From: Streptococcaceae bacterium
GTDB lineage: Bacteria; Bacillota; Bacilli; Lactobacillales; Streptococcaceae
DNA length: 47,617 nucleotides
Assembly (NCBI GenBank): GCA_031254115.1
Contig: JAIRUZ010000048.1
Coordinates: 1 to 47,617 of the forward strand
Reading direction: 5' to 3'
The notes under the pieces are model-generated. The model saw only the letters and a program-made list of their open reading frames with translations. It searched no databases and was not told the DNA's origin. A program made the position numbers and the translations under genes. Shown piece after piece: positions 3,761 to 47,427 of this stretch. The first letter of the stretch is position 1, and each line of letters opens with the position of its first letter.

Positions 3761-5365
3761 TTAGCTGTCAGCTCTTTGAAAGACGTGATAGCTCCACGCG
3801 TCGAGCGTCATATTTTCTGTCAGCTGACGGCGCGTGCTCCCTAAAACCTGTTTATATTTTACCATATTTGGCGGAAAACTTAGATGTGCTTTTTTCGTGC
3901 TCAGATTTGTGAGTATGAGGAAATCGTCACGCGTGTAAGCGAGAACCTGCGGATGCGTCGTGAAAAGAAAGTCGATGGCACCGTCAGAAATCGCTGGCTC
4001 GTCATGGCGCAGCGCAATAAGCGCGCGGTAGAGCTCTGTCAGTTCAAGCTTCGCCGTGAAATCCTGCAATTCGACCATCCAGGGTCTGTCAGCTGTCGTA
4101 AACGTGTCATCAGGCCATTTCATCGGCGTGCGCGAATGATCTCTGGAATTTTTCGTGACTTTATCAAGCGCTTCTTTTTCTGTCAGCCCTGACAGAATCA
4201 GCTTTTCATACGCCGCCTGATTTTCTGGCGCGGTTGTCTCCTCAATCGTCTGAAACGGAAAATTCGGCATACCAAGCTCTTGTCCTTGATAAATGAAAGG
4301 CGTGCCGCGCAGCAGCATGAAACTCACCGCAAGCGCTTTTGCAGACGCAACCGTGCCGTCGCCGTACAAATCAATGCTGCGTGGCCCGTCGTGATTTTCC
4401 AGATACAGCGCGTTCCAACCACCACCAGCCTGTAAATCCTGCTGCCAACGCATAATGACTTTTTTGTACCCAGAGATAGACGCGTGCCCGTTGGGTGCGA
4501 TGACGCGGTGCTCCAGCTCAAAAATTGCGTCCATGTAGCCGTCATCGTCTGTCCACGCGGACGCTTTGTCGCTCGTCACGCCCGACGCTTCGCCGACGGT
4601 AAATGCGCCATTTGCCTCAAAAATCGCGCGCAAATCCGACAAATAATGTTCAATTCCCGCAACATTCATGAACGGTTGCCACGGCCCATTTCCTTTGAGA
4701 GACGTGATTTTGAAATCCCACGGCGCCTTTTGAATGTGCGAAATCGCGTCCAAGCGAAAGCCGTCAATGCCAAGCGTCAGCCACCAGCGAATCATGGCGT
4801 AAATTTCTTCTCGCAAGGCTGGATTTTTCCAATTTAAATCTGGCTGCTGGCTTGCAAACACGTGAAAATAGGCTTGTTTTGTTGCCGCCTGATACGTCCA
4901 AGCAGGAATGCCAAAAAAGCTGCGCCAATTATTCGGCAAGGCGTCTTCTGTCGCGTCAGCCCACAAATAATAATCACGGTATTTATTATCGCGCGACTTT
5001 TGCGCTTCGATGAACCACGGGTGCTGATCACTCGTGTGATTGACGACCAAATCCATAATCAGCTTCATGCCGAGCGCATGCACTTTTTCGAGCAACTCTT
5101 TGAAATCGGCCATCGTGCCAAACATCGGATCAATCGCGCAAAAATCGCTGATGTCATAGCCGCCGTCCACTTGTGGGCTTGCATAGACTGGATTGAGCCA
5201 GAGCACATCGACACCGAGACTTTTTAGATAGGGCAATTTTTCAATCACACCGCGCAAATCGCCGATACCGTCGCCATTGCTGTCTTTAAACGACTTCGGG
5301 TAAATCTGATAGCCTACCCATTTATGAAATTCTGTTGTTTTCATTTTTTCTCTTTCTAACGTCAT
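3761..5365 (-). CDS. GH13 alpha-glucosidase / oligo-1,6-glucosidase-like
   Basis: WVGYQIYPKSFKDSNGDGIGDLRGVIEKLPYLKSLGVDVLWLNPVYASPQ; DLVVNHTS; GFRLDAI; ENHDGPR. Start may be ATG near 5344 (MKTTEFHKW). Confidence 0.9.
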   Translation of the reverse strand: MTLEREKMKTTEFHKWVGYQIYPKSFKDSNGDGIGDLRGVIEKLPYLKSLGVDVLWLNPVYASPQVDGGYDISDFCAIDPMFGTMADFKELLEKVHALGMKLIMDLVVNHTSDQHPWFIEAQKSRDNKYRDYYLWADATEDALPNNWRSFFGIPAWTYQAATKQAYFHVFASQQPDLNWKNPALREEIYAMIRWWLTLGIDGFRLDAISHIQKAPWDFKITSLKGNGPWQPFMNVAGIEHYLSDLRAIFEANGAFTVGEASGVTSDKASAWTDDDGYMDAIFELEHRVIAPNGHASISGYKKVIMRWQQDLQAGGGWNALYLENHDGPRSIDLYGDGTVASAKALAVSFMLLRGTPFIYQGQELGMPNFPFQTIEETTAPENQAAYEKLILSGLTEKEALDKVTKNSRDHSRTPMKWPDDTFTTADRPWMVELQDFTAKLELTELYRALIALRHDEPAISDGAIDFLFTTHPQVLAYTRDDFLILTNLSTKKAHLSFPPNMVKYKQVLGSTRRQLTENMTLDAWSYHVFQRADS

Positions 5366-6759
5366 GTTTCCACTAAATTATTAAGCCATGTTTTTTTGCG
5401 AAATTTCGCGAGACACCAGACGACGCGCACGATTTCCTCAAATGAAATCGCCGCAAATACCAGATAAATCGGCCAGTGCCAGACAAATGCCGTGAGATAG
5501 CCCAGCGGCACGGCGAGCGCCCACGAAATCAACGATTGCCACAAGATGAACCATGTTTCGCCGCCCGCCGCCAGCACGCCGCCTGTCACAATCATATTTG
5601 TTACCTTGATAGGAATGAAAATCGCCATCATGACAAATGTTGCCTGCGTGAGCGCGCTTGAAAAGTCTGTCAGCCGATATAAGCTGATATAGCGCGGACT
5701 TATGGCAATCATCAGCGCTGACAGAGCAAATGATGCGAAAAATCCAAGCCACAAAATTCGCCGCGCCGTCCCGTAAGCTTCGCTCAATTCGCTGCGCCCA
5801 AGATGGTGCCCAATCAAGACACTTGCCGCTGTCGAAAAGCCGCCAAAAAATGTGATAAGCAGCGTCTCAACAGGCCCCATGACTGTCACCGCGACCGTTT
5901 CAGCTGTGCCCATAAAGCCGTAAATCGCATTCACGACAGAAACCATCAAAGTAAAGCTGATATTTTCAATCAGCAATGGCGCCGTCAGCCGCCAAAACTT
6001 TTTGATGTCGTCGTCAGCTGATAGAAAACCTGTCAGCGCTGACAGCGGGTACGAGCCGATGAGCTTCTTCCCAAAAATAAAGCCAGCCAAAACGGCGAGC
6101 TCAATCCAGCACGAAATCGCTGTTGCAAGCCCTGAGCCCGCAACGCCGAGCCGCGGCGCACCAAGATTGCCAAAGACAAAAATCCAATTCAGCCCTGCGT
6201 CAATGAGAACTGCGAGAAACCCTGCGTACATCGGCAATTTCACGCGTTTCGCATTGCGCAGCACCGTCGAATAAACGGCTATCAGCGCAATTGGCAAATA
6301 ACTCCACGCAAACGTTTGGTGATACGTGACGCCAAGCCCGATGACCGCCTTGTCAGCCGTAAACAGCCGCATGCACCACTCGGGAAAGCCGACCGACAGC
6401 ACCATGAAAATGAGCGCGAGCAAAATTCCAACCGCAAGCGCCATGCCTTCAATCTTGGCAATTTTTTCTGGCATGCGATTTCCTAAAAATTGCGCCGCGA
6501 GAATCCCGAGGCCACCTGTCAGCCCCATCAGCGCAAAATTCAGCACACCAAAATTCCGTGACGCAAGAGAAACCGCGACTACCGCCGCGTCCCCCAATTG
6601 CCCGACCATCAGCTGATCCACAATTCCTAAAATCGAATACAGCATTCCTTGCAGCGCCACGGGCAATGCGAGCGCCAAAACTTCCTTGAAAAAGCCTACC
6701 TTTGCAACTTGAAAATCCAAACCACCGCCCCCGCATCTATCGCAACGCCCAAAATCCAC
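5362..6759 (-). CDS. MATE family efflux transporter
   Basis: About 450 aa, multi-TM; KEVLALALPVALQGMLYSILGIVDQLMVGQLGDAAVVAVSLASR is NorM/MATE-like. True start uncertain (probably ~6720 or lower). Confidence 0.88.
   Translation of the reverse strand: MDFGRCDRCGGGGLDFQVAKVGFFKEVLALALPVALQGMLYSILGIVDQLMVGQLGDAAVVAVSLASRNFGVLNFALMGLTGGLGILAAQFLGNRMPEKIAKIEGMALAVGILLALIFMVLSVGFPEWCMRLFTADKAVIGLGVTYHQTFAWSYLPIALIAVYSTVLRNAKRVKLPMYAGFLAVLIDAGLNWIFVFGNLGAPRLGVAGSGLATAISCWIELAVLAGFIFGKKLIGSYPLSALTGFLSADDDIKKFWRLTAPLLIENISFTLMVSVVNAIYGFMGTAETVAVTVMGPVETLLITFFGGFSTAASVLIGHHLGRSELSEAYGTARRILWLGFFASFALSALMIAISPRYISLYRLTDFSSALTQATFVMMAIFIPIKVTNMIVTGGVLAAGGETWFILWQSLISWALAVPLGYLTAFVWHWPIYLVFAAISFEEIVRVVWCLAKFRKKTWLNNLVET
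6030..6045. repeat. Perfect copy of iterated dyad CTGTCAGCGCTGACAG (inside MATE gene)
   Basis: Exact 16-bp palindrome. Confidence 0.95.
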
Positions 6760-13983: not shown

Positions 13984-15591
13984 TTATTTCCCGACCGCGC
14001 CACCTTTAGTGGACACATAATAGGACGCGTTTGAGCTGTTGAGCGTCACCAAATTACCCGATGTATCAACCCCGTAAACTTGCGGTGTTTTGCCTTTTTC
14101 AGTGACCGTCGCTGACGGCATGAAATAGCTTGGCAGCGTATAGCCACTTGACGAATAGCCTTGACTTTCCATATAGGACTGATAGGTGATGACATTGCTT
14201 GAAAGGCTTGTCAGCGCTGACAGACCGATGGACTGACGCATGATGTTCTGCACGGCAAGGTCAACATCTCTTGGCATCAGCTGATAGCTTGCATAAACGC
14301 CGTCAGAGCCCGCTGCTGTTGCGCCGACGCCCTCATATTGAATCGAAACCATTTTATCAAATGCGGAGCGATACGCCAAAGTTGAGAACATGTTAGGAAT
14401 CGTTGCTTTGATATTTGTTTTGAAATCGCTTGATGTTGCGTCTAGCATTTGTTTATAATTCAGCACGGTGTGCATGGAAAGGAGCTTTTTGAATGTCGCG
14501 GCAATCACTTCGCGCTGATGAGCCGCGCGTCCATAATCACCATTTGGCAACGTATCGCGGTCACGCGAGAAAACAAGTGCTTGCTCGCCGTTGATATGCT
14601 GAGACTTCCCAGCGCCAATATATGGCACTGTCGCTGTGTATTGCGGCTCTGTATTCGCGATGGTAATCGTTGAGCCCGAGTCATTGACCACGTCAATGCC
14701 ACCCACGTAATTCACCAAATTGACGAGCCCGTCCATGTTCACGACCATAAAATTATTAATCGGAATCCCCGTTTGCTCGCCGAGCGTGTGCATCGCAGAG
14801 AGCGTGGCCGCTTTGATGCCGCCCGCATTGGCGTACGCATACGGATAGGCCGCGTTCATCTTAGCTTGGAAAATGACCTTGCCATTTTCATCCATAATAT
14901 TGCTCATCGTGTCGCGCTCCATCGAAATCATTGTCGTGGTGTGCGTTTTCGGGTTAATCGTCATGACAATTTGCGAGTCCGAATTACCATTCCACGAGCC
15001 CGCGCCGCCGCGCGTCGCATCTCCTGTATCAACGCCCAAGAGCGCGACCGTTAGCGGCTGTGACGCATCGAGCATGCCATTTCCCGTCTCGACATACGTC
15101 TTTGCGAGACCTTTCTCCGTGACAAGCGCAAAATAAGTCAGTGCGCCCGCAAAAAGAAGTAAGAGAACGCCTAGAATAAGCGCCAAACGTTTGAGCCAAC
15201 GCCCTTTTTTCTTTGGTTTATCGATTTTCTTTGCCTTTTTTTCACGCTGACGCGCGCGGTTGTTTACAGGAGTTGGCCTTTTTGGCGTATATTCCTCAAA
15301 TGGTTCAAGCGTTTCGAGCGGATTTTGAGCTTCAATTTGCGGCTGTACTTCTTCTGGCACGGCCTGCAAAACGCGCGGCTGCTCGACTAATTGACTGCGC
15401 TTTTGGAGTGCTTCTTTTGCACGATTGCGCTCGTGTAAAAAAAGCTCCTCCGCGCGCGCATTATCCTCTGCAAGCGCTTGATCCGTGCGATAGGCACGCT
15501 CCAAATCGTGTAATTCGCCACGTTCGCGTTCATTTAAATAATCACTATTTTTTCGCAAATAATTCAGGCGATTGAGCGTCTGTTTATCCAT
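13984..15591 (-). CDS. LytR-CpsA-Psr (LCP) family protein with long cytoplasmic N-terminus
   Basis: Single TM, then LTVALLGVDTGDATRGGAGSWNGNSDSQIVMTINPKTHTTTMISMERDT and VVNMDGLVNLVNYVGGIDVVND LCP motifs. Confidence 0.9.
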   Translation of the reverse strand: MDKQTLNRLNYLRKNSDYLNERERGELHDLERAYRTDQALAEDNARAEELFLHERNRAKEALQKRSQLVEQPRVLQAVPEEVQPQIEAQNPLETLEPFEEYTPKRPTPVNNRARQREKKAKKIDKPKKKGRWLKRLALILGVLLLLFAGALTYFALVTEKGLAKTYVETGNGMLDASQPLTVALLGVDTGDATRGGAGSWNGNSDSQIVMTINPKTHTTTMISMERDTMSNIMDENGKVIFQAKMNAAYPYAYANAGGIKAATLSAMHTLGEQTGIPINNFMVVNMDGLVNLVNYVGGIDVVNDSGSTITIANTEPQYTATVPYIGAGKSQHINGEQALVFSRDRDTLPNGDYGRAAHQREVIAATFKKLLSMHTVLNYKQMLDATSSDFKTNIKATIPNMFSTLAYRSAFDKMVSIQYEGVGATAAGSDGVYASYQLMPRDVDLAVQNIMRQSIGLSALTSLSSNVITYQSYMESQGYSSSGYTLPSYFMPSATVTEKGKTPQVYGVDTSGNLVTLNSSNASYYVSTKGGAVGK

Positions 15592-20221: not shown

Positions 20222-20638
20222 ATGGCACAATCTCTAAATACCAAAGTGGAGCTGACGGGCGAGGCGATTGCCTATGCTGGTTTTCCGCAATATGGCAAAT
20301 TTATGATCGGCGATTATGCGTTTGAATTTTTTGATGATCGCAGCGTTGAAAAAAACATGCAATTTCCGTGGGAGTCGATTAAGCTCGTGCAAGGCAGCAT
20401 CACGGGCAATAGGAAAAAGCCTGCAATTGGGCGTACCTTTTATGTCGTGCTGAAAAATGGCAACAAAGTCCGTTTCAATTCGCAAGAAACTGGGAAAATT
20501 CTCAAAATTTTTCGTGAGCGGCTTGGCAATGACAAAGTCGTCAAAGCACCGACCTTCACGCATACTTGGCGGCAATTATTTAAATTGGAGTCGTGGAAAA
20601 ATACCTTTCGGCGCAAGAAAAAAGCAGGTCGCAACTGA
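20222..20638 (+). CDS. DUF956 family protein (ManO-like)
   Basis: LNTKVELTGEAIAYAGFPQYGKFMIGDYAFEFFDDRSVEKNMQFPWESIKLV; located downstream of man-type PTS as is typical. Confidence 0.8.
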   Translation: MAQSLNTKVELTGEAIAYAGFPQYGKFMIGDYAFEFFDDRSVEKNMQFPWESIKLVQGSITGNRKKPAIGRTFYVVLKNGNKVRFNSQETGKILKIFRERLGNDKVVKAPTFTHTWRQLFKLESWKNTFRRKKKAGRN

Positions 20639-20982
20639 TGGAAACAGTCGCAGGCGAAGCGCTGATTTTTATGGGCGCAATGGAGCGCGGCACGCTTTCT
20701 GTCAGGGCTGACAGAATTGAATTTGCGTTTAAAAATCCGCGCACGGGGACAAACCTCGTGTATCCATGGGAGCTGGTGAGTGGTCTTGAGATTCACGTCA
20801 CGAGCGGCAAAAAAATCAAATCGGATTTTTCGCTTCTTCTTGCGACACAAACAAAAATTCATTTTTCGTCTAAAAAAGCGCCTGATTTCATTCGCCAAAT
20901 CAGCGATAAAATTGGGCATGAAAATGTCATGCGCGAGCCAACACTTCTGTCAGGGCTGACAGAACCTTTTCGCAGAAAATAA
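20638..20982 (+). CDS. Second, divergent DUF956-like protein
   Basis: METVAGEALIFMGAMERGTLSVRADRIEFAFKNPRTGTNLVYPWELVSGLEIHVTSGKKI parallels the upstream gene (GEA...YPWE); stop/start overlap TGATG. Confidence 0.65.
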   Translation: METVAGEALIFMGAMERGTLSVRADRIEFAFKNPRTGTNLVYPWELVSGLEIHVTSGKKIKSDFSLLLATQTKIHFSSKKAPDFIRQISDKIGHENVMREPTLLSGLTEPFRRK

Positions 20983-20999: not shown

Positions 21000-21232
21000 C
21001 ATTCAAAATTTTTGTGGTACAATAAGGGCAATCAGATAAGTAAATCGCTTTCATTTTCAGAAAGTCTGCGGGCGCTGCGAGCAGATAATGCAAGAGATTG
21101 AAATTCTACTGAGGCAGAAATTGACAAGAAAATTTCTGAAAATAAAAGAACGTAATTAAGTGCACTACTTAGTGAAGCCGGATGGAACCGTGGCGAAAGT
21201 CACTCCGGACAAACGCGTGGGGCACTTTTCTT
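21000..21232 (+). ncRNA. T-box leader of serS
   Basis: Structured leader with GGATGGAACCGTGGC T-box-like core and a late AAGTGCACTACTT... GGGGCACTTTTCTTT terminator-type pairing before serS; contains TCTAC (possible Ser specifier). Confidence 0.75.
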
Positions 21233-21263
21233 TGTGTCTCAATCAAAAAATGAGGAGGCAGAA

Positions 21264-22535
21264 ATGCTGGATATGAAACGAATCCGTCAGGACGTTGACG
21301 GGGTGGCAAAACAATTGGAAGTGCGCGGCGTGGCAAAAGAAACGCTGTCAGAGCTGACAAGGCTTGACGAAGAGCGTCGCGAGCTGATTGTCAAAGTTGA
21401 AGAGCTTAAGGCGCTTCGCAATGAGGCATCAGAAAAAATTGCGCAAGCCAAGCGAAAGGGTGAAAACGCTGAGGAACAAATTGCTGAAATGGGCACGGTG
21501 GCCGCTGAAATCAAAGCTGACGACGAAAAACTTGCGCTACTTGACACGCAAATCAATGACATCGTCGTACTGATTCCAAACATCGCACACGCGTCAGTAC
21601 CAATTGGCGCTGACGAAGACGCTAATGTCGAGGTTCGCCGTCACGGCGAGGCTCCAAAATTTGACTTTGAGCCAAAGGCGCATTGGGATTTGGGCACGGA
21701 TCTCGACATTCTTGACTGGGAACGTGGCGCGAAAGTCACGGGCACGCGTTTCCTTTTCTACAAAGGGCTTGGCGCGAAGCTCGAGCGCGCGGTCTACAAT
21801 TTCATGCTTGACGAGCACGAAAAAGAAGGCTACACCGAGATGATTCCACCCTACATGGTCAATCAAGACTCCATGTTTGGCACGGGGCAATATCCAAAAT
21901 TCAAGGAAGACACGTTTGAGCTTAAAGACGAGCGCGGCTTCGTTCTTATCCCAACTGCTGAAGTTCCGCTCACAAATTATTACCGAGGCGAAATCATTGA
22001 CGGCGCCAAATTGCCGATTTATCTGACAGCGATGTCGCCAAGCTTTCGCTCAGAAGCTGGGTCTGCAGGACGTGATACGCGCGGCCTCATTCGCTTGCAC
22101 CAATTCCACAAAGTCGAGATGGTCAAATTCGCATCGCAAGAAACGTCTTACGATGAGCTTGAAAAAATGGTGGTCAACGCCGAAAATATTTTACAAAAAC
22201 TGGGGCTTGCTTATCGCGTGATTACACTCTCTACGGGCGACATGGGCTTCTCTGCGGCGAAAACATACGACCTTGAAGTTTGGATTCCTGCGCAAAATAC
22301 CTATCGCGAAATTTCAAGCTGCTCAAATTGCGAAGATTTTCAAGCACGACGTGCACAAATTCGCTATCGCGACGCAGACGGAAAAGTTAAACTTGCACAC
22401 ACGCTAAACGGCTCTGGACTCGCTGTTGGCCGTACGGTTGCCGCGATTCTTGAAAATTATCAAAATGCGGACGGCTCCGTCACAATTCCTGAAGTCCTAC
22501 GTCCTTATATGGGCGGCCGCGACATCATCAAATAA
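21264..22535 (+). CDS. serS: Seryl-tRNA synthetase
   Basis: [23 protein letters not shown] ... [30 protein letters not shown] before ATG 21264. Confidence 0.95.
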
Positions 22536-25109: not shown

Positions 25110-26012
25110 TTATTTGAGAAGTTTTTGTAAATCGTCTGGTAATGGGCATTCTAAAACGATTTTCTGATTTCGGATGAGATTTTTAAATTCTAGGTGATGG
25201 CAATGCAACGCCTGACGCGCAAGAAGGTCATGATTGCCGCCATAAAGCGTGTCGCCGATGAGCGGAAAACCGATGTGGCTCATGTGCACGCGAATTTGGT
25301 GCGTGCGCCCCGTGTGAAGCGTGAGATCAAGGAGCCTGAGGTCATTCTTTTCTAAAACGGTCGTGTAGCTCGTCGACGCATTTTTAGTTTCATAAAGCCC
25401 GCCAAATCCGTCAAACCTGACTTGACGCTTAATAATTGAATTTTCAGCACGGCCGATTGGCAAATTGATTCTGTCAGCGCTGACAAAATTTTCATTTGCT
25501 TTGATAAGCGCAAAATAGCGTTTTTGAAGGCTTTCGCGGCCGCGCCCAGCTGACAGAAGCGCATGCGCATAACGATGTTTGGCAAACAGCATCAAGCCCG
25601 ACGTGTCTTTGTCGAGCCGCGTGACAATGTGCACCGTTTGATTGGGGTAATTTTTCGCGCGAATATAGCCCGCGACAAAATTGCTCATTGAGCCAGTCGG
25701 TTTTTCGCGGCCTGTGATAGACGGGGAACCTGCGGGCTTATTGACGATGAGATAATCTGCGTCCTCGTAAATTACATCAAGAGCAGCGTTCTCAGCAACG
25801 AGTGTTTCAGACGCTTTTTCGTCAGGCACAAAAATCGTGAGCTTCTCGCCCAGCGCGACAGGCGTTGTTGCAAGCGCGGGTATGCCCGCCACAAAAATCT
25901 CCCCGCCGTCAAATTTGACACGTGCGAGGAGGTTTTTTGATACGCCGAAATGTTTCAGAACGCGCTTAACGAGCATGTCCGCGCGAATATCGTTGACAAA
26001 TGAAAATTCCAT
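25110..26012 (-). CDS. RluA/RluD family pseudouridine synthase
   Basis: VNKPAGSPSITG; VTRLDKDTSGLMLFAKH; TGRTHQIRVHMSHIGFPLIGDTLYGG. Confidence 0.93.
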   Translation of the reverse strand: MEFSFVNDIRADMLVKRVLKHFGVSKNLLARVKFDGGEIFVAGIPALATTPVALGEKLTIFVPDEKASETLVAENAALDVIYEDADYLIVNKPAGSPSITGREKPTGSMSNFVAGYIRAKNYPNQTVHIVTRLDKDTSGLMLFAKHRYAHALLSAGRGRESLQKRYFALIKANENFVSADRINLPIGRAENSIIKRQVRFDGFGGLYETKNASTSYTTVLEKNDLRLLDLTLHTGRTHQIRVHMSHIGFPLIGDTLYGGNHDLLARQALHCHHLEFKNLIRNQKIVLECPLPDDLQKLLK

Positions 26013-28405: not shown

Positions 28406-28763
28406 GCTTTGTGCCTCCTTTTATGGGATTATACGTATTGACGGCAATCGTCGGGCTGATAGACGCTGCGATTTTTTCTGTCAGCGCTGACAAAAGCGCT
28501 TGTAGCTCATTTTCAGCAAGTTTGAGCTGATAGACTTTTTCATTGAGAGCGATTTCCTTTTGAAGCGCACGAATCTCAGGCCTGTAAGTCAAAAATGCGC
28601 GATTTTCGTCCAGACGTGCGACTTTCTCCTGCAAATCAGCATCTTCCTCAAACGCTTTTTTCGCGAGACGATACGACGACGCCTCAGAACTCGCCAAAAC
28701 CTCCTGCGTCAGCGCCTCTAAAACAGCGTCAATCTCAAACAATCTCTCGTCAATAGGTAACAT
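28386..28763 (-). CDS. YlbF/YmcA family regulator
   Basis: MLPIDERLFEIDAVLEALTQEVLASSEASSYRLAKKAFEEDADLQEKVARLDENRAFL; ATG at 28763 is preferred over the ORF-track start. Confidence 0.8.
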   Translation of the reverse strand: MLPIDERLFEIDAVLEALTQEVLASSEASSYRLAKKAFEEDADLQEKVARLDENRAFLTYRPEIRALQKEIALNEKVYQLKLAENELQALLSALTEKIAASISPTIAVNTYNPIKGGTKHAHRRI

Positions 28764-32991: not shown

Positions 32992-33585
32992 TTACCTCTG
33001 CTTCAAAAGCCGCGCCAGTTGTACTTTTATCGCTTCTATCAGCGCTTGTCGCGTGCGTGTATTTTCCAAAATCACGTCGGCACGCGCACATTTTTCTTCA
33101 ATCGAAAATTGCGCGTCAAGTCGCGCATTCGCGGCTGCTTCTGTCAGCTGATTGCGCGCCACAAGGCGCGAGAGTTGAACATTTCGCGGCGCATAAACAA
33201 GCCAAATTTCATCGACTTCATTTTCATAATGTTGCTCAAAAAGCAGCGGAATATCCATGAAAACTAGGCTGTCAGCCGCTGCATCGCGCTGACGTAAAAG
33301 TTCAGAGCGCACAATCTTTTCTGTCAGCGCTGACAGCTTTTTATTGGCCGCTATGTCTGAAAAAACGAGCGCACCAAGCTTTGCACGGTCAACCGCGCCA
33401 TCAGCTGACAAAAAGTCGCCGCCAAAAGTTTCCGCAATCGCGCCTGACAGCGGCGCACCGGGTGCCTGCAACGCATGCACAACCTCGTCCGCGTCAATCA
33501 CTGCGTGCCCTTGCGCACGCAAATAGGCCGTCACTTGCGACTTCCCCGTCGCGATACCGCCCGTAATCCCAATTACTTTTTTCAT
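32992..33585 (-). CDS. coaE: Dephospho-CoA kinase
   Basis: MKKVIGITGGIATGKSQVTAYLRAQGHAVIDADEVVH; start ATG 33585 preferred. Confidence 0.94.
   Translation of the reverse strand: MKKVIGITGGIATGKSQVTAYLRAQGHAVIDADEVVHALQAPGAPLSGAIAETFGGDFLSADGAVDRAKLGALVFSDIAANKKLSALTEKIVRSELLRQRDAAADSLVFMDIPLLFEQHYENEVDEIWLVYAPRNVQLSRLVARNQLTEAAANARLDAQFSIEEKCARADVILENTRTRQALIEAIKVQLARLLKQR
33321..33336. repeat. Perfect copy of iterated dyad CTGTCAGCGCTGACAG (inside coaE)
   Basis: Exact 16-bp palindrome, flanked as TTTTCTGTCAGCGCTGACAGCTTTT. Confidence 0.95.
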
Positions 33586-35612: not shown

Positions 35613-38366
35613 TTATTTTTCAAAGGCTGTGAGTTCGGGAAATTCTGTGGCGACTGTATGCGCGCAATTTTCGCAGAGCTCAGGGAAGTTCGCATTTGCG
35701 CCAACGGTTGGATCAATGCGTCGGCAACGCTCGCAGACCGTGCCGTCAGCGGGAACCACGTCAAATGCAACGCCGTCCTCGCCAAATGGCAAGACTTCAA
35801 ATGAACTCACAATCAGGAGCTTTGCCACATTTTCGTCAAGTGCAACGAGCATCGCGCGCGTGGGCTCGTCCGCGTGCACCACGAGTTTTGCTTCCATTGA
35901 GCGGCCAATGACTTTGGCTTCGCGCGCGTCTTCAAGTGCTTTGAGTGCGTTGTCGCGAAATTCCATGAAAGCAGACCACGTGTCCATCAGCGCAGCCGTG
36001 TCGCTGATATTTTCAGGCTCTGGCATCTCTGACAGATACGCAAATGCCGCGTCTTCGTGCTGCAAATACGCCCAAACTTCTTCGGCAGTGTGCGGCAAAA
36101 TGGGCACCAAAAGCTTTGTCAGCGCTGACAGAATCTTGTACATGACCGTTTGCATGCCATGGCGCGCGCGGCTATCAGCTGCCTCAATATACACGACATC
36201 TTTCGCAAAATTCAGGTAGAACGCCGAAAGCTCGGACAAATAATTGACCACGAGCTTATACACGCTCATGAAGCTGTAGTTATCGTAAGCCGCGCGAATG
36301 TACCCGACGAGCGCGTCAAGCTTGACGTACTCAAATTTGTCAGAGCTCTGCAAATGCTCGAACGCCACGCTGTCAGCCGCTGGATCGAAATCTGACGTGT
36401 TGGCAATCAGGAAACGCAGCGTGTTGCGGATTTTTCGGTAAGCTTCAGACGTTTGCTGGAGAATATCCAGCGATACGCGAACGTCATTTTCGTAATCGAC
36501 AGACGCGACCCAAAGACGCAAAATGTCCGCGCCGTATTTGCTGGTGACATCTTTCGGGCCAATGGTGTTGCCAAGCGACTTCGACATTTTCTTGCCTTCG
36601 CCGTCAAGCACAAAACCTTGCGAGAGAACCGCCTTGTACGGCGCAATGCCATTAACTGCAACGCTCGTCGTGATGGACGAGTTAAACCAGCCGCGGTATT
36701 GATCCGAGCCTTCAAGATACAAGTCCGCCGGATAAGAAAGATCTTCGCGCGTGTTCAGCACGCCATTCCATGAAGACCCCGAGTCAAACCAGACGTCCAT
36801 GATGTCCGTTTCCTTCGTGAAGACGCCGTTTGGCGAGCTTGGATGTGTAAAGCCTTCGGGCAATAATTCCGCAGCCTCGTGCGTGAACCAATAACCCGAG
36901 CCGTGTTTCTCAAACAATTGCGCGACATGCTCCGTCGTTTCTGGCGTGATAATCGCTGAGCCGTCCTCACCGTAGAAAATAGGCAACGGCACGCCCCACG
37001 CGCGCTGACGGCTGATAACCCAGTCGCCGCGGTCGCGAATCATATTGTACAGGCGCGTTTTGCCCCATGGGACAATCCATTCCACATTTTCCGTTTCCTT
37101 GAGTAATTGCTCACGAAATGGATCAATTGACGCAAACCATTGCGGCGTCGCGCGGTAAACAACTGGCTTTTTCGTGCGCCAGTCGTGCGGATAGCTGTGC
37201 GTGAAACGCTCCATAAAGAGCAAACGATTGGTTGCATGGAGCTTTTCAAGCACTTTTTCTTCCACGTCATCATAAAAATCGCCTTCAAAACCTTCTGCCA
37301 CGCTTGTAAAACGCCCTTGCTCATCCAAATCTTCAATGACTGGCAGCTTGTATTTACGGCTATAAAAATAGTCGTCCTCACCGTGATTGGGCGACGTGTG
37401 CACGAGCCCCGTCCCACTGTCAAGCGTCACGTATTCGCCCGTCATCACAAGCGATTCACGGTCATAAAACGGATGCGTTGCCGTGAGATTTTCTAATTCC
37501 GCGCCCTTGTAAGTTGCAAGAATTTCTGGCTTTTGCCAGCCCAATTTTTCTGTCAGCTGCTCTAATAGCGCTTTTGCGACAATAAATTTTCTGTCAGCCA
37601 CCGCGGCCAACACATACTCATAGTCTGGATGCACAAAAATGCCGCGGTTACTTGGCAATGTCCACGCCGTCGTCGTCCAAATGACAAATTCAGCGTCAGC
37701 TGGCACCACACCTTTTGTATCACGCACTTTAAACGCGATATAAAGCGATGGCGACTCAACATCCTGATATTCAATCTCAGCCTCGGCAAGCGAACTCTCC
37801 GAGCTCCAACTCCAATAAATAGGCTTCGCACCGCGATAAATATAGCCTTTTTCAGCCATTTTGCCAAATACGCGAATTTCTTGCGCTTCAAATTCGGGTG
37901 CAAGCGTCATGTACGGATTTTCCCAATCGCCAAGAACGCCCAAACTCTTGAAATCCTTGCGCTGCATGTCAATCTGCTCGAGCGCATATTTGCGACAAAG
38001 CGCAAGATACGCGCCTCTATCCATCTCTTTGCGTTTCACGCCCGCTTTTGCAAGCTGCTGCTCAATCGGCAGCCCATGCGTGTCCCAGCCTGGCACATAC
38101 GGCGCACGAAAACCAGCCATCGACTTGTAACGCACGATAATATCTTTTGAAATTTTATTTAAGCTGTGTCCAATGTGAATATTGCCATTGGCATAAGGTG
38201 GGCCGTCGTGCAGCATATAGCTTGGCTTGCCAGCGTTGAGCTTCTGCCTGAGCACATAGAGATTTTCCGCCTCCCAGTGTGCTTGCCACTCAGGCTCTTT
38301 TTTCGGCAACCCTGCGCGCATGGGAAACTCGGTCTTCCCAAGATTGAGTGTATCTTTGATTTTCAT
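35613..38366 (-). CDS. ileS: Isoleucyl-tRNA synthetase
   Basis: [63 protein letters not shown]-terminal Zn motif CERC...CENC. Confidence 0.97.
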
Positions 38367-39399: not shown

Positions 39400-40197
39400 T
39401 CACCTCTTTTTTTGATTCATCATCAACGAAATTTCAAGTTTGAATTTCTGCTTTTTGGTTTGACCCAAAACCGCACCAATTTTGATACGACCATAACCTC
39501 TGATAGAAATCAGATCTCCTGTTTTGAGGAGCGCATCGTTCTTGTCAGCCAGCGTATAATTGACTTTGACTTGCTCTGATTGTATCATATTTCCTGCAAA
39601 ATTGCGAGAAATAGTGAGCGCAGCAGCAATTATTTTGTCAAGACGAAGCGAGCTTGCGAGAATTATTTTTTGTGTGCTGTCAGCTCTGACAGAAAATGAG
39701 CCATTAGAAGCTGACAGAGCGCCATTTAGCGGGAGCTCCTGTAAGCTGACAGGTAAACGCGCAATGCGCGTAATTTGCTGCTCAAAAGCTGAAACGAGCC
39801 GGCGACTGACATAAATCTGCGCCGTTCCGCCTGACACAAGAATATCGCCGATTTCCTCGCGCCTGACGCCCGTTTCTCCCAAAAATGTGCCTAAAATCTG
39901 CACATGCGTCAGCTGCTTGAACTTGGCATTGTACGAAACTTCAAGCAACAAAAGCTCAAAATCAGCGTCATCCACGCGGTAAAAAGACGGCGATACAAGA
40001 ACGCGTTTGTATTCCTCGCCCGCACTTTCAAAAAATGTGAGCGACGCACGCGCTGCAAGCGCACGCAAAACATCGCGTTCGTGCGGGTTTAAAAAATACG
40101 TCAAAATGGGGCGATCCTGCGCTTGAAAAAGCCAATCCTCGCAACGACTGACAAATGCGCGTTCCTCGGGCCTAAATGAGTATGCCGCGTCCGCCAT
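39400..40197 (-). CDS. ylmH: YlmH-type S4-domain RNA-binding protein
   Basis: RKI/S4-like C-terminus (IIAAALTISRNFAGNMIQSEQVKVNYTLADKNDALLKTGDLISIRGYGRIKIG); division-cluster context. Confidence 0.88.
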   Translation of the reverse strand: MADAAYSFRPEERAFVSRCEDWLFQAQDRPILTYFLNPHERDVLRALAARASLTFFESAGEEYKRVLVSPSFYRVDDADFELLLLEVSYNAKFKQLTHVQILGTFLGETGVRREEIGDILVSGGTAQIYVSRRLVSAFEQQITRIARLPVSLQELPLNGALSASNGSFSVRADSTQKIILASSLRLDKIIAAALTISRNFAGNMIQSEQVKVNYTLADKNDALLKTGDLISIRGYGRIKIGAVLGQTKKQKFKLEISLMMNQKKR

Positions 40198-44529: not shown

Positions 44530-45399
44530 TTAATGGCGTTCAGATTTCCCTAAAGTGAAAATTGCAATAGTGCCGGTCCCTGTATGGACACTAATCACGG
44601 GGCCAAGCGGGCGCACAACAATTCGCTCAAACGCTTTTTCTTCAGCCAAATCAGCCGCGATTTTGTCAGCTGCCGTAGAATCGCCCGAGTAAGCAATAAT
44701 AATCTTGGAATACGCCGCGTCATGCCCTTCTACGCTGTTTGCAACTAATTTATTGATTGCTTTTTTGGTGCCACGTGCGCGCTCAACCGTGCGCAAATGG
44801 CCGCCTTCGTCCACATCAAGAACAGGCTTGATAGACGCAAGCGTGCCGACCGCGGCTGCGGTTTTCGAGATTCGCCCACCACGCGCCAAATGTTTAAGGT
44901 CGTCAACTATAAACCAGCTACGTAAGCGCGGAATCATTTCTGTCAGCGCTGACAGAATCTCCGCAAGCGAACGGCCAGCCTCTTTGAGTGTCACTACTTC
45001 CTCAACGAGAAAACCTTCGCCAGAAGCGGCTGCCAGCGTGTCAACAAGCGTAATTTTCGCCTCAGGAAATTCTTCTAAAACCATGTCACGCGCAATATTG
45101 GCCGTTTGATAAGTGCCCGAAAGACCGCTTGAAAATGCCAGATAAAGCACGTCGACGCCTACTTTTGCATAGCGCGTAAAAACATCTTGAAAAACGCCCG
45201 TCGGAATTTGCGACGTTGAAGCTTGCGCACCTTTTCTCATTTTTTCAAGCAACGTGTCACTTGTCAGCGCGCCTGCGCCCGTCGTTTGGCGAATTTCGCC
45301 ATTTAAAATAACGGGCATACTGAGAATCTCAAGCGCATGTTCCTGCGCCCATTTTTCGTCCAAATCTGCCGTTGAATCTGTTATCAGTTGAAAGGTCAT
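44530..45399 (-). CDS. DegV family fatty-acid-binding protein
   Basis: MTFQLITDSTADLDEKWAQEHALEILSMPVILNGEI; ASTSQIPTGVFQDVF. Confidence 0.93.
   Translation of the reverse strand: MTFQLITDSTADLDEKWAQEHALEILSMPVILNGEIRQTTGAGALTSDTLLEKMRKGAQASTSQIPTGVFQDVFTRYAKVGVDVLYLAFSSGLSGTYQTANIARDMVLEEFPEAKITLVDTLAAASGEGFLVEEVVTLKEAGRSLAEILSALTEMIPRLRSWFIVDDLKHLARGGRISKTAAAVGTLASIKPVLDVDEGGHLRTVERARGTKKAINKLVANSVEGHDAAYSKIIIAYSGDSTAADKIAADLAEEKAFERIVVRPLGPVISVHTGTGTIAIFTLGKSERH
44940..44955. repeat. Perfect copy of iterated dyad CTGTCAGCGCTGACAG (inside degV gene)
   Basis: Exact 16-bp palindrome. Confidence 0.95.
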
Positions 45400-46165: not shown

Positions 46166-46187
46166 ATTCTGTCAGCGCTGACAGAAT
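46166..46187. terminator. 22-bp perfect palindrome between fabZ and rlmB, probable terminator of fabZ
   Basis: ATTCTGTCAGCGCTGACAGAAT; on the minus strand it is followed by TTTCTTG. Confidence 0.5.
46169..46184. repeat. Perfect copy of iterated dyad CTGTCAGCGCTGACAG (intergenic fabZ/rlmB)
   Basis: Exact 16-bp palindrome extended to 22 bp. Confidence 0.95.
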
Positions 46188-46645: not shown

Positions 46646-47427
46646 CAGTATCTCCTAAATCTTTCATAGCGTTGCGTTTGCAATTCCTCAGCTGTCAGCG
46701 CTGACAGCTCGCGAAGTGCGCTCGCAAGGGTTTCTGTCAGCGCTTGCAGAAGATCATTTTCTTCTGGCACGATGCCGTCGATGATGCCCATCTCTAGTAA
46801 TTTGTCTGACGTCATTTTCATCAGCTCAGCGGCCTCGTCGCGACGACTGCCGTCTTTCCAGAGAATCGTCGCAAAGCCTTCGGGCGAGAGTACCGAGTAG
46901 ACAGCATTTTCGAGCGCGTAAACTCGATTCGCAACTGCCAGTGCTAACGCGCCGCCCGACCCTCCTTCACCTGTGATAAAACTTATCACTGGAACTTTTA
47001 GGTCCGACATTTCGAGTAGATTTTTCGCGATGGCTTCACCTTGACCGCGTTCTTCTGCTTCTATCCCAGGGTAAGCACCAGCTGTGTTGACAAAGGTAAT
47101 GATAGGTCTGCCAAACTTCTCAGCCTGTTTCATCAAGCGGAGGGCCTTACGATAGCCATTTGGAGAAGATTGCCCAAAGTTTGTTGTAAGATTTTCTTCC
47201 AGATTGCGGCCCTTTTGAATTCCAATAATTGTCACTGCACGTCCATCAATGCTCGCGATTCCGCCTACAACTGCCTCATCATCTATGAATTGACGGTCTC
47301 CATGCAACTCAAAAAAGTCATCAAAGACCTGTTCAGCAATTTCTCTCATTGTGATCCGAGTAGCCGCCCTGGCCTTGCTGATAATTTCAGATATTTCTGC
47401 CATCTTTGCCTCCATTTTTGATGCCAT
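46645..47427 (-). CDS. accA: Acetyl-CoA carboxylase carboxyltransferase subunit alpha
   Basis: [70 protein letters not shown]. Confidence 0.96.
46692..46707. repeat. Perfect copy of iterated dyad CTGTCAGCGCTGACAG (inside accA)
   Basis: Exact 16-bp palindrome, extended to AGCTGTCAGCGCTGACAGCT. Confidence 0.95.

Follow-up and report, generated by a model that had tools for sequence, protein, structure and literature searches.

Of two neighbouring DUF956 genes in a Streptococcaceae genome, the second carries the same inverted repeat, CTGTCAGGGCTGACAG, twice and reads it in two different frames, which raises the question of whether the sequence is constrained as protein or as DNA. Both copies lie in the window, the stretch of 47,617 nucleotides that was analysed as a whole. 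As the initial annotation had reported, they stand within 264 bp of each other in this one gene and encode different peptides: the copy at 20699-20714 is read TCT GTC AGG GCT GAC AGA (S-V-R-A-D-R, codon offset 2) and the copy at 20947-20962 is read CTG TCA GGG CTG ACA GAA (L-S-G-L-T-E, codon offset 1). Their centres are 248 bp apart, or about 24 × 10.32 bp.

The gene itself (20638-20982, plus strand; PF06115, E 2.7e-13) likely starts at position 20638 with an ATG that overlaps the stop codon of its neighbour, the first DUF956 gene (20222-20638), and both are located downstream of a mannose-family PTS. Scores against PF06115 of 50 bits for the second gene and 125 bits for the first indicate that the second is far more diverged; two DUF956-like matches were seen in several relatives too. 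The leader at 21000-21230, ahead of the gene at 21234-22535, appears T-box-like by eye (GGATGGAACCGTGGCG...), and a search of the whole window with Rfam at gathering cut-offs, this leader included, returned no match.

Reading frames of the dyads

Further dyads are spread along the window, where CTGTCAGNNCTGACAG occurs nine times, against none in 100 shuffles, and TGTCAGNNCTGACA 15 times, the spacer always being exactly 2 bp. Thirteen of the 15 lie inside called genes, nine at offset 1 (LSxLT), four at offset 2 (VSAD or VRAD) and none at offset 0. Apart from the two DUF956 copies, genic examples include TGTCAGCGCTGACA at 984-997 in the gene 808-1473 (VSVSADKC), at 14209-14222 in the gene 13984-15591 (GLSALTSL) and at 25472-25485 in the gene 25110-26012 (NFVSADRI); CTGTCAGCCCTGACAG at 4180-4195 in an alpha-amylase-family gene (3761-5365); CTGTCAGCGCTGACAG at 6030-6045 in a MATE gene (5362-6759); TGTCAGAGCTGACA at 21346-21359 in the gene 21234-22535 (TLSELTRL); and CTGTCAGCTCTGACAG at 39677-39692 in the gene 39400-40197, where it heads a cluster of half-sites (39678-39836). 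Others are found in coaE (33321-33336, KLSALTEK), ileS (36117-36130, ILSALTKL), the gene 44530-45399 (44940-44955, ILSALTEM) and accA (46692-46707, ELSALTAE). The two intergenic dyads are TTTTTCTGTCAGCGCTGACAAAAG at 28479-28492 and AAATTCTGTCAGCGCTGACAGAATAAACTT at 46169-46184. MATE, CoaE, AccA and DUF956, all previously named among the dyad-bearing genes, were confirmed by Pfam, and the gene named as IleS matched known isoleucyl-tRNA synthetase loci.

Copies were also mapped to their reading frame beyond the window, across 631 kb (44%) of the host assembly (G000, an incomplete draft of 1.42 Mb that is 76% complete), with genes called by a simple codon-score caller. Here 153 of 191 dyads are genic, and they use offsets 1, 2 and 0 in 110, 43 and 0 cases; the expectation that the third frame, which would place a TGA stop in the motif, is not used thus held for every genic dyad. 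Per kilobase, intergenic DNA has about two times as many dyads (37 in ~70 kb) as genic DNA (153 in ~561 kb).

Orthologue alignments at three sites, one in IleS and two in DUF956, bore out the proposal that peptides of the LSALT and VSAD type are lineage-specific replacements. The IleS peptide ILSALTKL of the host is aligned with ILKDLTKL, MLVDLVKL and similar sequences in 20 relatives, while in DUF956 SVRADRIEF occupies a variable stretch that is LGDxGxEF-like in relatives, and LLSGLTE stands in place of LLDPFRR-like ends. All three are lineage-specific substitutions without an indel, and no unrelated genus showed the same peptide at any of these positions. Since the L and the T/K of the IleS peptide pre-exist in relatives, sites grow by substitution onto near-matches, and they have done so in unrelated proteins and in two frames.

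The repeated unit and its abundance

The dyad described in the initial annotation is real, but it is not the basic element, because the half-site alone forms the unit and the element is therefore wider. This unit is the word RCTGACAGA (9-10 bp, [A/G]CTGACAG[A]), of which the dyad CTGTCAG-NN-CTGACAG is one arrangement; units also occur singly, in outward pairs and in loose arrays, and inward pairs are additionally spaced by N4 in Lactococcus allomyrinae (G061, identified by plasmids identical to NZ_CP032628/NZ_CP032629). In the host the half-site CTGACA is ~4-fold enriched regardless of whether 1, 2 or 3 of the 6 positions of the other half match, and in L. allomyrinae the half-site alone is enriched 2.6- to 4-fold. 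The geometries in the latter comprise 73 inward N2 pairs, 44 inward N4 pairs, 59 outward N6-N7 pairs, and direct repeats at 20-21 and 30-32 bp. The central dinucleotide of the dyad is free (CG, TA, TG, CA, AG and others).

Over the whole host assembly TGTCAGNNCTGACA was counted 447 times, against 0 for the reversed-pattern control. RCTGACAGA is present in 1430 copies in G070, 1335 in L. allomyrinae (0.49 per kb over ~2.7 Mb), 944 in G067, 896 in the host, 817 in G065, 747 in G062, 357 in G071 and 308 in G012, with controls of 8-23 across genomes (11 in the host, 8 in L. allomyrinae). G067 and G062 possess only 20 and 16 dyads, yet they are rich in units. Lactococci poor in the motif, including the L. 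termiticola genome, and two sampled genomes of genus g5 (presumably streptococci) have 20-50 copies, which is background. Chance or base composition as the source of this abundance is ruled out by the shuffles and reversed-pattern controls. Sequence entering the statistics amounted to 631 kb for the host assembly, ~460-575 kb for L. allomyrinae and smaller amounts for the other genomes.

Among 343 genomes of the family in which the dyad was counted, high numbers are confined to the host and to members of a single further genus: 705 copies in G065, 494 in G071, 447 in the host, 376 in G070 and 349 in L. allomyrinae, followed by 71 in G063 and 37 in G002. The host's sister G003 has only 19, and genomes of genus g5, presumably Streptococcus, have 0-3 each. 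By its IleS the host falls within Streptococcaceae beside Lactococcus, the best named matches being L. termiticola (70%) and L. reticulitermitis (69%); the IleS of G074 is identical to that of L. termiticola. In the IleS tree, rich genomes do not form one group; poor relatives divide them into three or more lineages. A phage origin of the motif was considered and rejected, as viral contigs gave only scattered single matches at no more than two positions per contig.

Conservation and distribution along the chromosome

L. allomyrinae and G070 are 93% identical over 176 kb. Within this alignment the dyad cores are 98-99% (98.1-98.7%) identical, compared with 92.4-93.3% for controls, the two central bases are only 80% identical, and 81-84% of single half-sites are retained, compared with 65% of permuted hexamers. 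The protected footprint is thus formed by the letters of CTGTCAG-NN-CTGACAG, and conservation of the core above background implies that the sites are maintained, either by selection or by a continuing drive.

The two strands carry RCTGACAGA in nearly equal numbers in every rich genome (450/446, 703/632, 732/698), and no link to GC skew, chromosomal position or an origin/terminus trend was detected in 33 stretches of L. allomyrinae. Plasmids of this species contain no dyad in 63 kb, and half-sites are sparse in its accessory-Sec/glycosyltransferase island (3 in 20 kb) and its sortase/polysaccharide cluster (6 in 20 kb), compared with a typical 10-17 per 10 kb. The stretch G061 C1:1580001-1600000 (L320), which is nearly motif-free, encodes Asp1, Asp2, a SecA2-like protein, glycosyltransferases and an ORF of 2203 aa; it was also considered as a prophage, and Pfam shows it to be an accessory-Sec adhesin/glycosylation island.

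Helical phasing of the units

Each half-site was assigned the centre of the dyad that it would form, and the distances between centres were analysed. These distances form a comb, at 20, 31, 41, 51, 62, 72, 82, 92, 103 and onward to ~250 bp. The fit gives a period of 10.3 bp, and units in either orientation follow it. The phasing power of nearest neighbours is 59 in the host (783 pairs) and 77 in L. allomyrinae (293 pairs), against maxima of 10 and 7, respectively, in 2000 jitters that kept codon phase. Among hexamers with enough pairs to be ranked, CTGACA is first of 286 in the host and first of 201 in L. allomyrinae, and words overlapping it rank next.

Beyond these two genomes, phasing was tested by whole-genome pattern counts, in which direct CTGACA pairs at 20-21 bp were compared with pairs at 25-26 bp. 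The ratios are 168:4 in G070, 149:5 in L. allomyrinae, 52:8 in the host, 44:3 in G067, 31:3 in G062, 26:3 in G065, 18:3 in G071 and 14:0 in G012, with 0-8 against 0-1 in the remaining, poorer genomes; the in-phase count of G062 is inflated by five CTGACA pairs spaced every 69 bp at C44:2767-3069, probably a repeat in one gene. A 60-bp tandem repeat unit containing a dyad is present in three copies in G065 (L104:6250-6383); repeats of 60 and 69 bp thus exist, near C1:86250 in G065 and in C44 of G062. Tandem duplication as the cause of the phasing was rejected, pairs with similar flanks numbering just 3 in the host and 2 in L. allomyrinae.

Phasing at the pitch of B-DNA is not predicted by models that invoke RNA, single strands or hairpins; it is predicted by a protein that contacts one face of the duplex at several points. 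The element is therefore very probably double-stranded DNA that is read by a protein in a face-specific manner, and a period of 10.3 rather than ~11 bp would suit relaxed DNA.

Together with the 110:43:0 distribution of frames and the lineage-specific substitutions, the phasing of pairs at distances not divisible by 3, a pattern foreseen by no explanation at the level of peptides, supports the earlier claim that the constraint acts on DNA, and more precisely on double-stranded DNA, rather than on protein. By far the least probable of the explanations, to the point of being negligible, is convergence of peptides or codon bias, or protein heptads (3.5 codons = 10.5 bp): multiples of 3 are indeed favoured among the distances of coding pairs, and one Ser/Asp-rich adhesin-like gene contributes such pairs, but coding pairs at distances not divisible by 3 are equally phased (power 43 in the host, 27 in L. 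allomyrinae), intergenic pairs are phased as well (power 56 in L. allomyrinae) and the peptides vary by frame and lineage, so that, with the orthologue alignments and codon-phase-keeping jitters, peptide convergence and coiled-coil heptads were rejected for the main signal. A long Ser/Asp-rich, adhesin-like repeat gene of the host (L008:8719-13158) yields CTGACA from its S-D codons and contributes a small amount of phasing that does not stem from the motif.

A candidate DNA-uptake sequence

What, then, reads the unit? Its anatomy, namely a non-palindromic 9-mer with strand symmetry that is spread within and between genes and is sparse on plasmids and islands, fits uptake sequences best, and by this analogy we consider the motif most likely to be a candidate DNA-uptake sequence for natural transformation, a reading to which we assign a probability of roughly 0.4. 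Like the DUS of Neisseria and the USS of Pasteurellaceae, it is a word of 9-12 bp at ~0.5 per kb, present on both strands, in and between genes, sparse in acquired DNA and conserved in position. Inverted pairs of uptake sequences occur in terminators, and the T-runs beside some intergenic dyads may be the counterpart here. The lactococcal motif differs from both in its Gram-positive host, in the dyads inside genes and in the helical phasing of several units; to our knowledge, uptake sequences have not been described as helically phased.

The phased arrays suggest how such a sequence might work. A protein assembly with several DNA-binding surfaces would contact one face of intact double-stranded DNA, and every further unit in phase would add avidity. 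Least certain is the identity of the reader, which may belong to the natural-transformation machinery, as a competence pilus tip or a membrane-anchored ComEA array; the phasing would be compatible with a surface array such as that of ComEA. Fragments rich in phased units would be preferentially taken up and recombined, and through this uptake drive genes would acquire the word at any place where their reading frame permits.

The distribution of competence genes was compared with that of the motif. The comGA-GG operon is complete in the host, and comEC is present in all rich genomes (split over two contig ends in G000). G001, the only com-negative genome, is without comEC and has no comGA match of normal length; it has 0 dyads, compared with 37 in its sister G002, a suggestive contrast. 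However, competence genes do not predict the motif, given that the L. termiticola genome and several species with 0-1 copies have intact comEC and comGA, as do most of the motif-free lactococci. The comG operon contains no extra receptor gene, its gene order being the same in rich and poor species. In G065, the genome with most dyads, phage genes (antirepressor, RecT) follow comGB where comGC would be expected (L346, C7:2000-11500); the operon seems to be interrupted by a prophage-like element, and the interruption may be recent.

Alternative readers and origins

The main rival to an uptake sequence, possible but rather unlikely, is a chromosome-organising protein: a sequence-specific dimer or oligomer would bind phased half-sites cooperatively and bridge or wrap the chromosome, in the manner of Noc, MatP or SlmA but at far more sites, with selection keeping the sites. 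Phasing over 24 turns and independence of orientation suit a cooperative or wrapping protein, the dyad with its free 2-bp centre resembles a dimer site, and the sites show conservation and are rare on plasmids and islands. However, most sites lie in coding DNA, sampled stretches of L. allomyrinae have no macrodomain or origin/terminus pattern, and zero copies in some close relatives would be odd for an essential organiser. Noc, MatP, SlmA and parS sites are 14-18 bp dyads of chromosomal proteins, from which the lactococcal motif differs by its hundreds to more than 1000 sites, sufficient half-sites and mostly intragenic location; we know of no sequence-specific nucleoid protein whose sites approach this density, which also counts against such a reader. 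Lrp/AsnC was rejected as the reader, since none of 23 genomes encodes a protein of this family.

An improbable third reading is a self-mark by which DNA with phased sites would escape a nuclease of defence or repair, following the logic of Chi with a different reader. A genome-wide, conserved motif that is sparse on plasmids and islands would be expected of such a mark, but the absence of strand bias and the symmetric dyad are unlike Chi. Chi and KOPS themselves, which are likewise over-represented genomic words, are excluded by the strand symmetry and the lack of replication-direction bias; the dyads that the motif forms are a further difference.

Still less probable is an element of regulation or termination that has multiplied, either an operator or the stem that terminators form in RNA. 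A T-run adjoins 14 of 38 intergenic dyads in the host and 8 of 18 in L. allomyrinae, as counted without a shuffle control, and a motif containing CTGACAG in an outward pair, m043 (CTGACAGWTCTRTCA), is reported to lie upstream of all members of the PyrR regulon of L. lactis MG1363 (PMC3547956). Open-licence papers were searched for the motif's sequence and for any iterated or uptake sequence described in Lactococcus, and nothing else of relevance emerged. However, m043 was described only as the upstream motif of one regulon (PMC3547956), whereas the lactococcal element is genome-wide and 153 of the 191 host dyads are genic; lone half-sites are enriched although they cannot form a hairpin, and phasing at B-DNA pitch indicates duplex DNA and not RNA.

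A HIP1-like site, written by a methyltransferase together with methylation-dependent mismatch repair, ranks marginally lower again. HIP1 of cyanobacteria is, like the motif, an iterated palindrome within genes that is patchy among relatives (PMC4390886). The lactococcal motif differs in having no fixed palindromic octamer and probably no internal methylase site: its free centre leaves no fixed 4-6 bp palindromic methylase site across it, its half-sites are active and are enriched without a partner, and its units are phased, which a HIP1-like origin does not predict.

Implications

Words iterated throughout a genome are known from few groups and only rarely from Gram-positives. Three classes of over-represented genomic words have been distinguished, namely Chi, uptake sequences and HIP1 (PMC4390886). 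DNA uptake by Gram-positive bacteria is held to be sequence-independent (PMC12040237), which speaks against the uptake reading. Taken as a whole, and more tentatively than the uptake function alone, the motif may constitute a Gram-positive self-recognition code for DNA uptake, the first of its kind, with units on the same face of the helix, a multi-subunit reader that senses their phase over ~250 bp of relaxed DNA, and hundreds of proteins rewritten as a consequence. If the motif is an uptake sequence, Gram-positive transformation can no longer be regarded as blind to sequence, and fragments that have or lack phased units would be directly testable in food-use lactococci; as a nucleoid code, it would be unusually dense for one that is sequence-specific. 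The phasing is a rare footprint of how a protein sits on DNA, legible from sequence alone, and in hundreds of genes of these bacteria a constraint at the level of DNA overrides the sequence of the protein.
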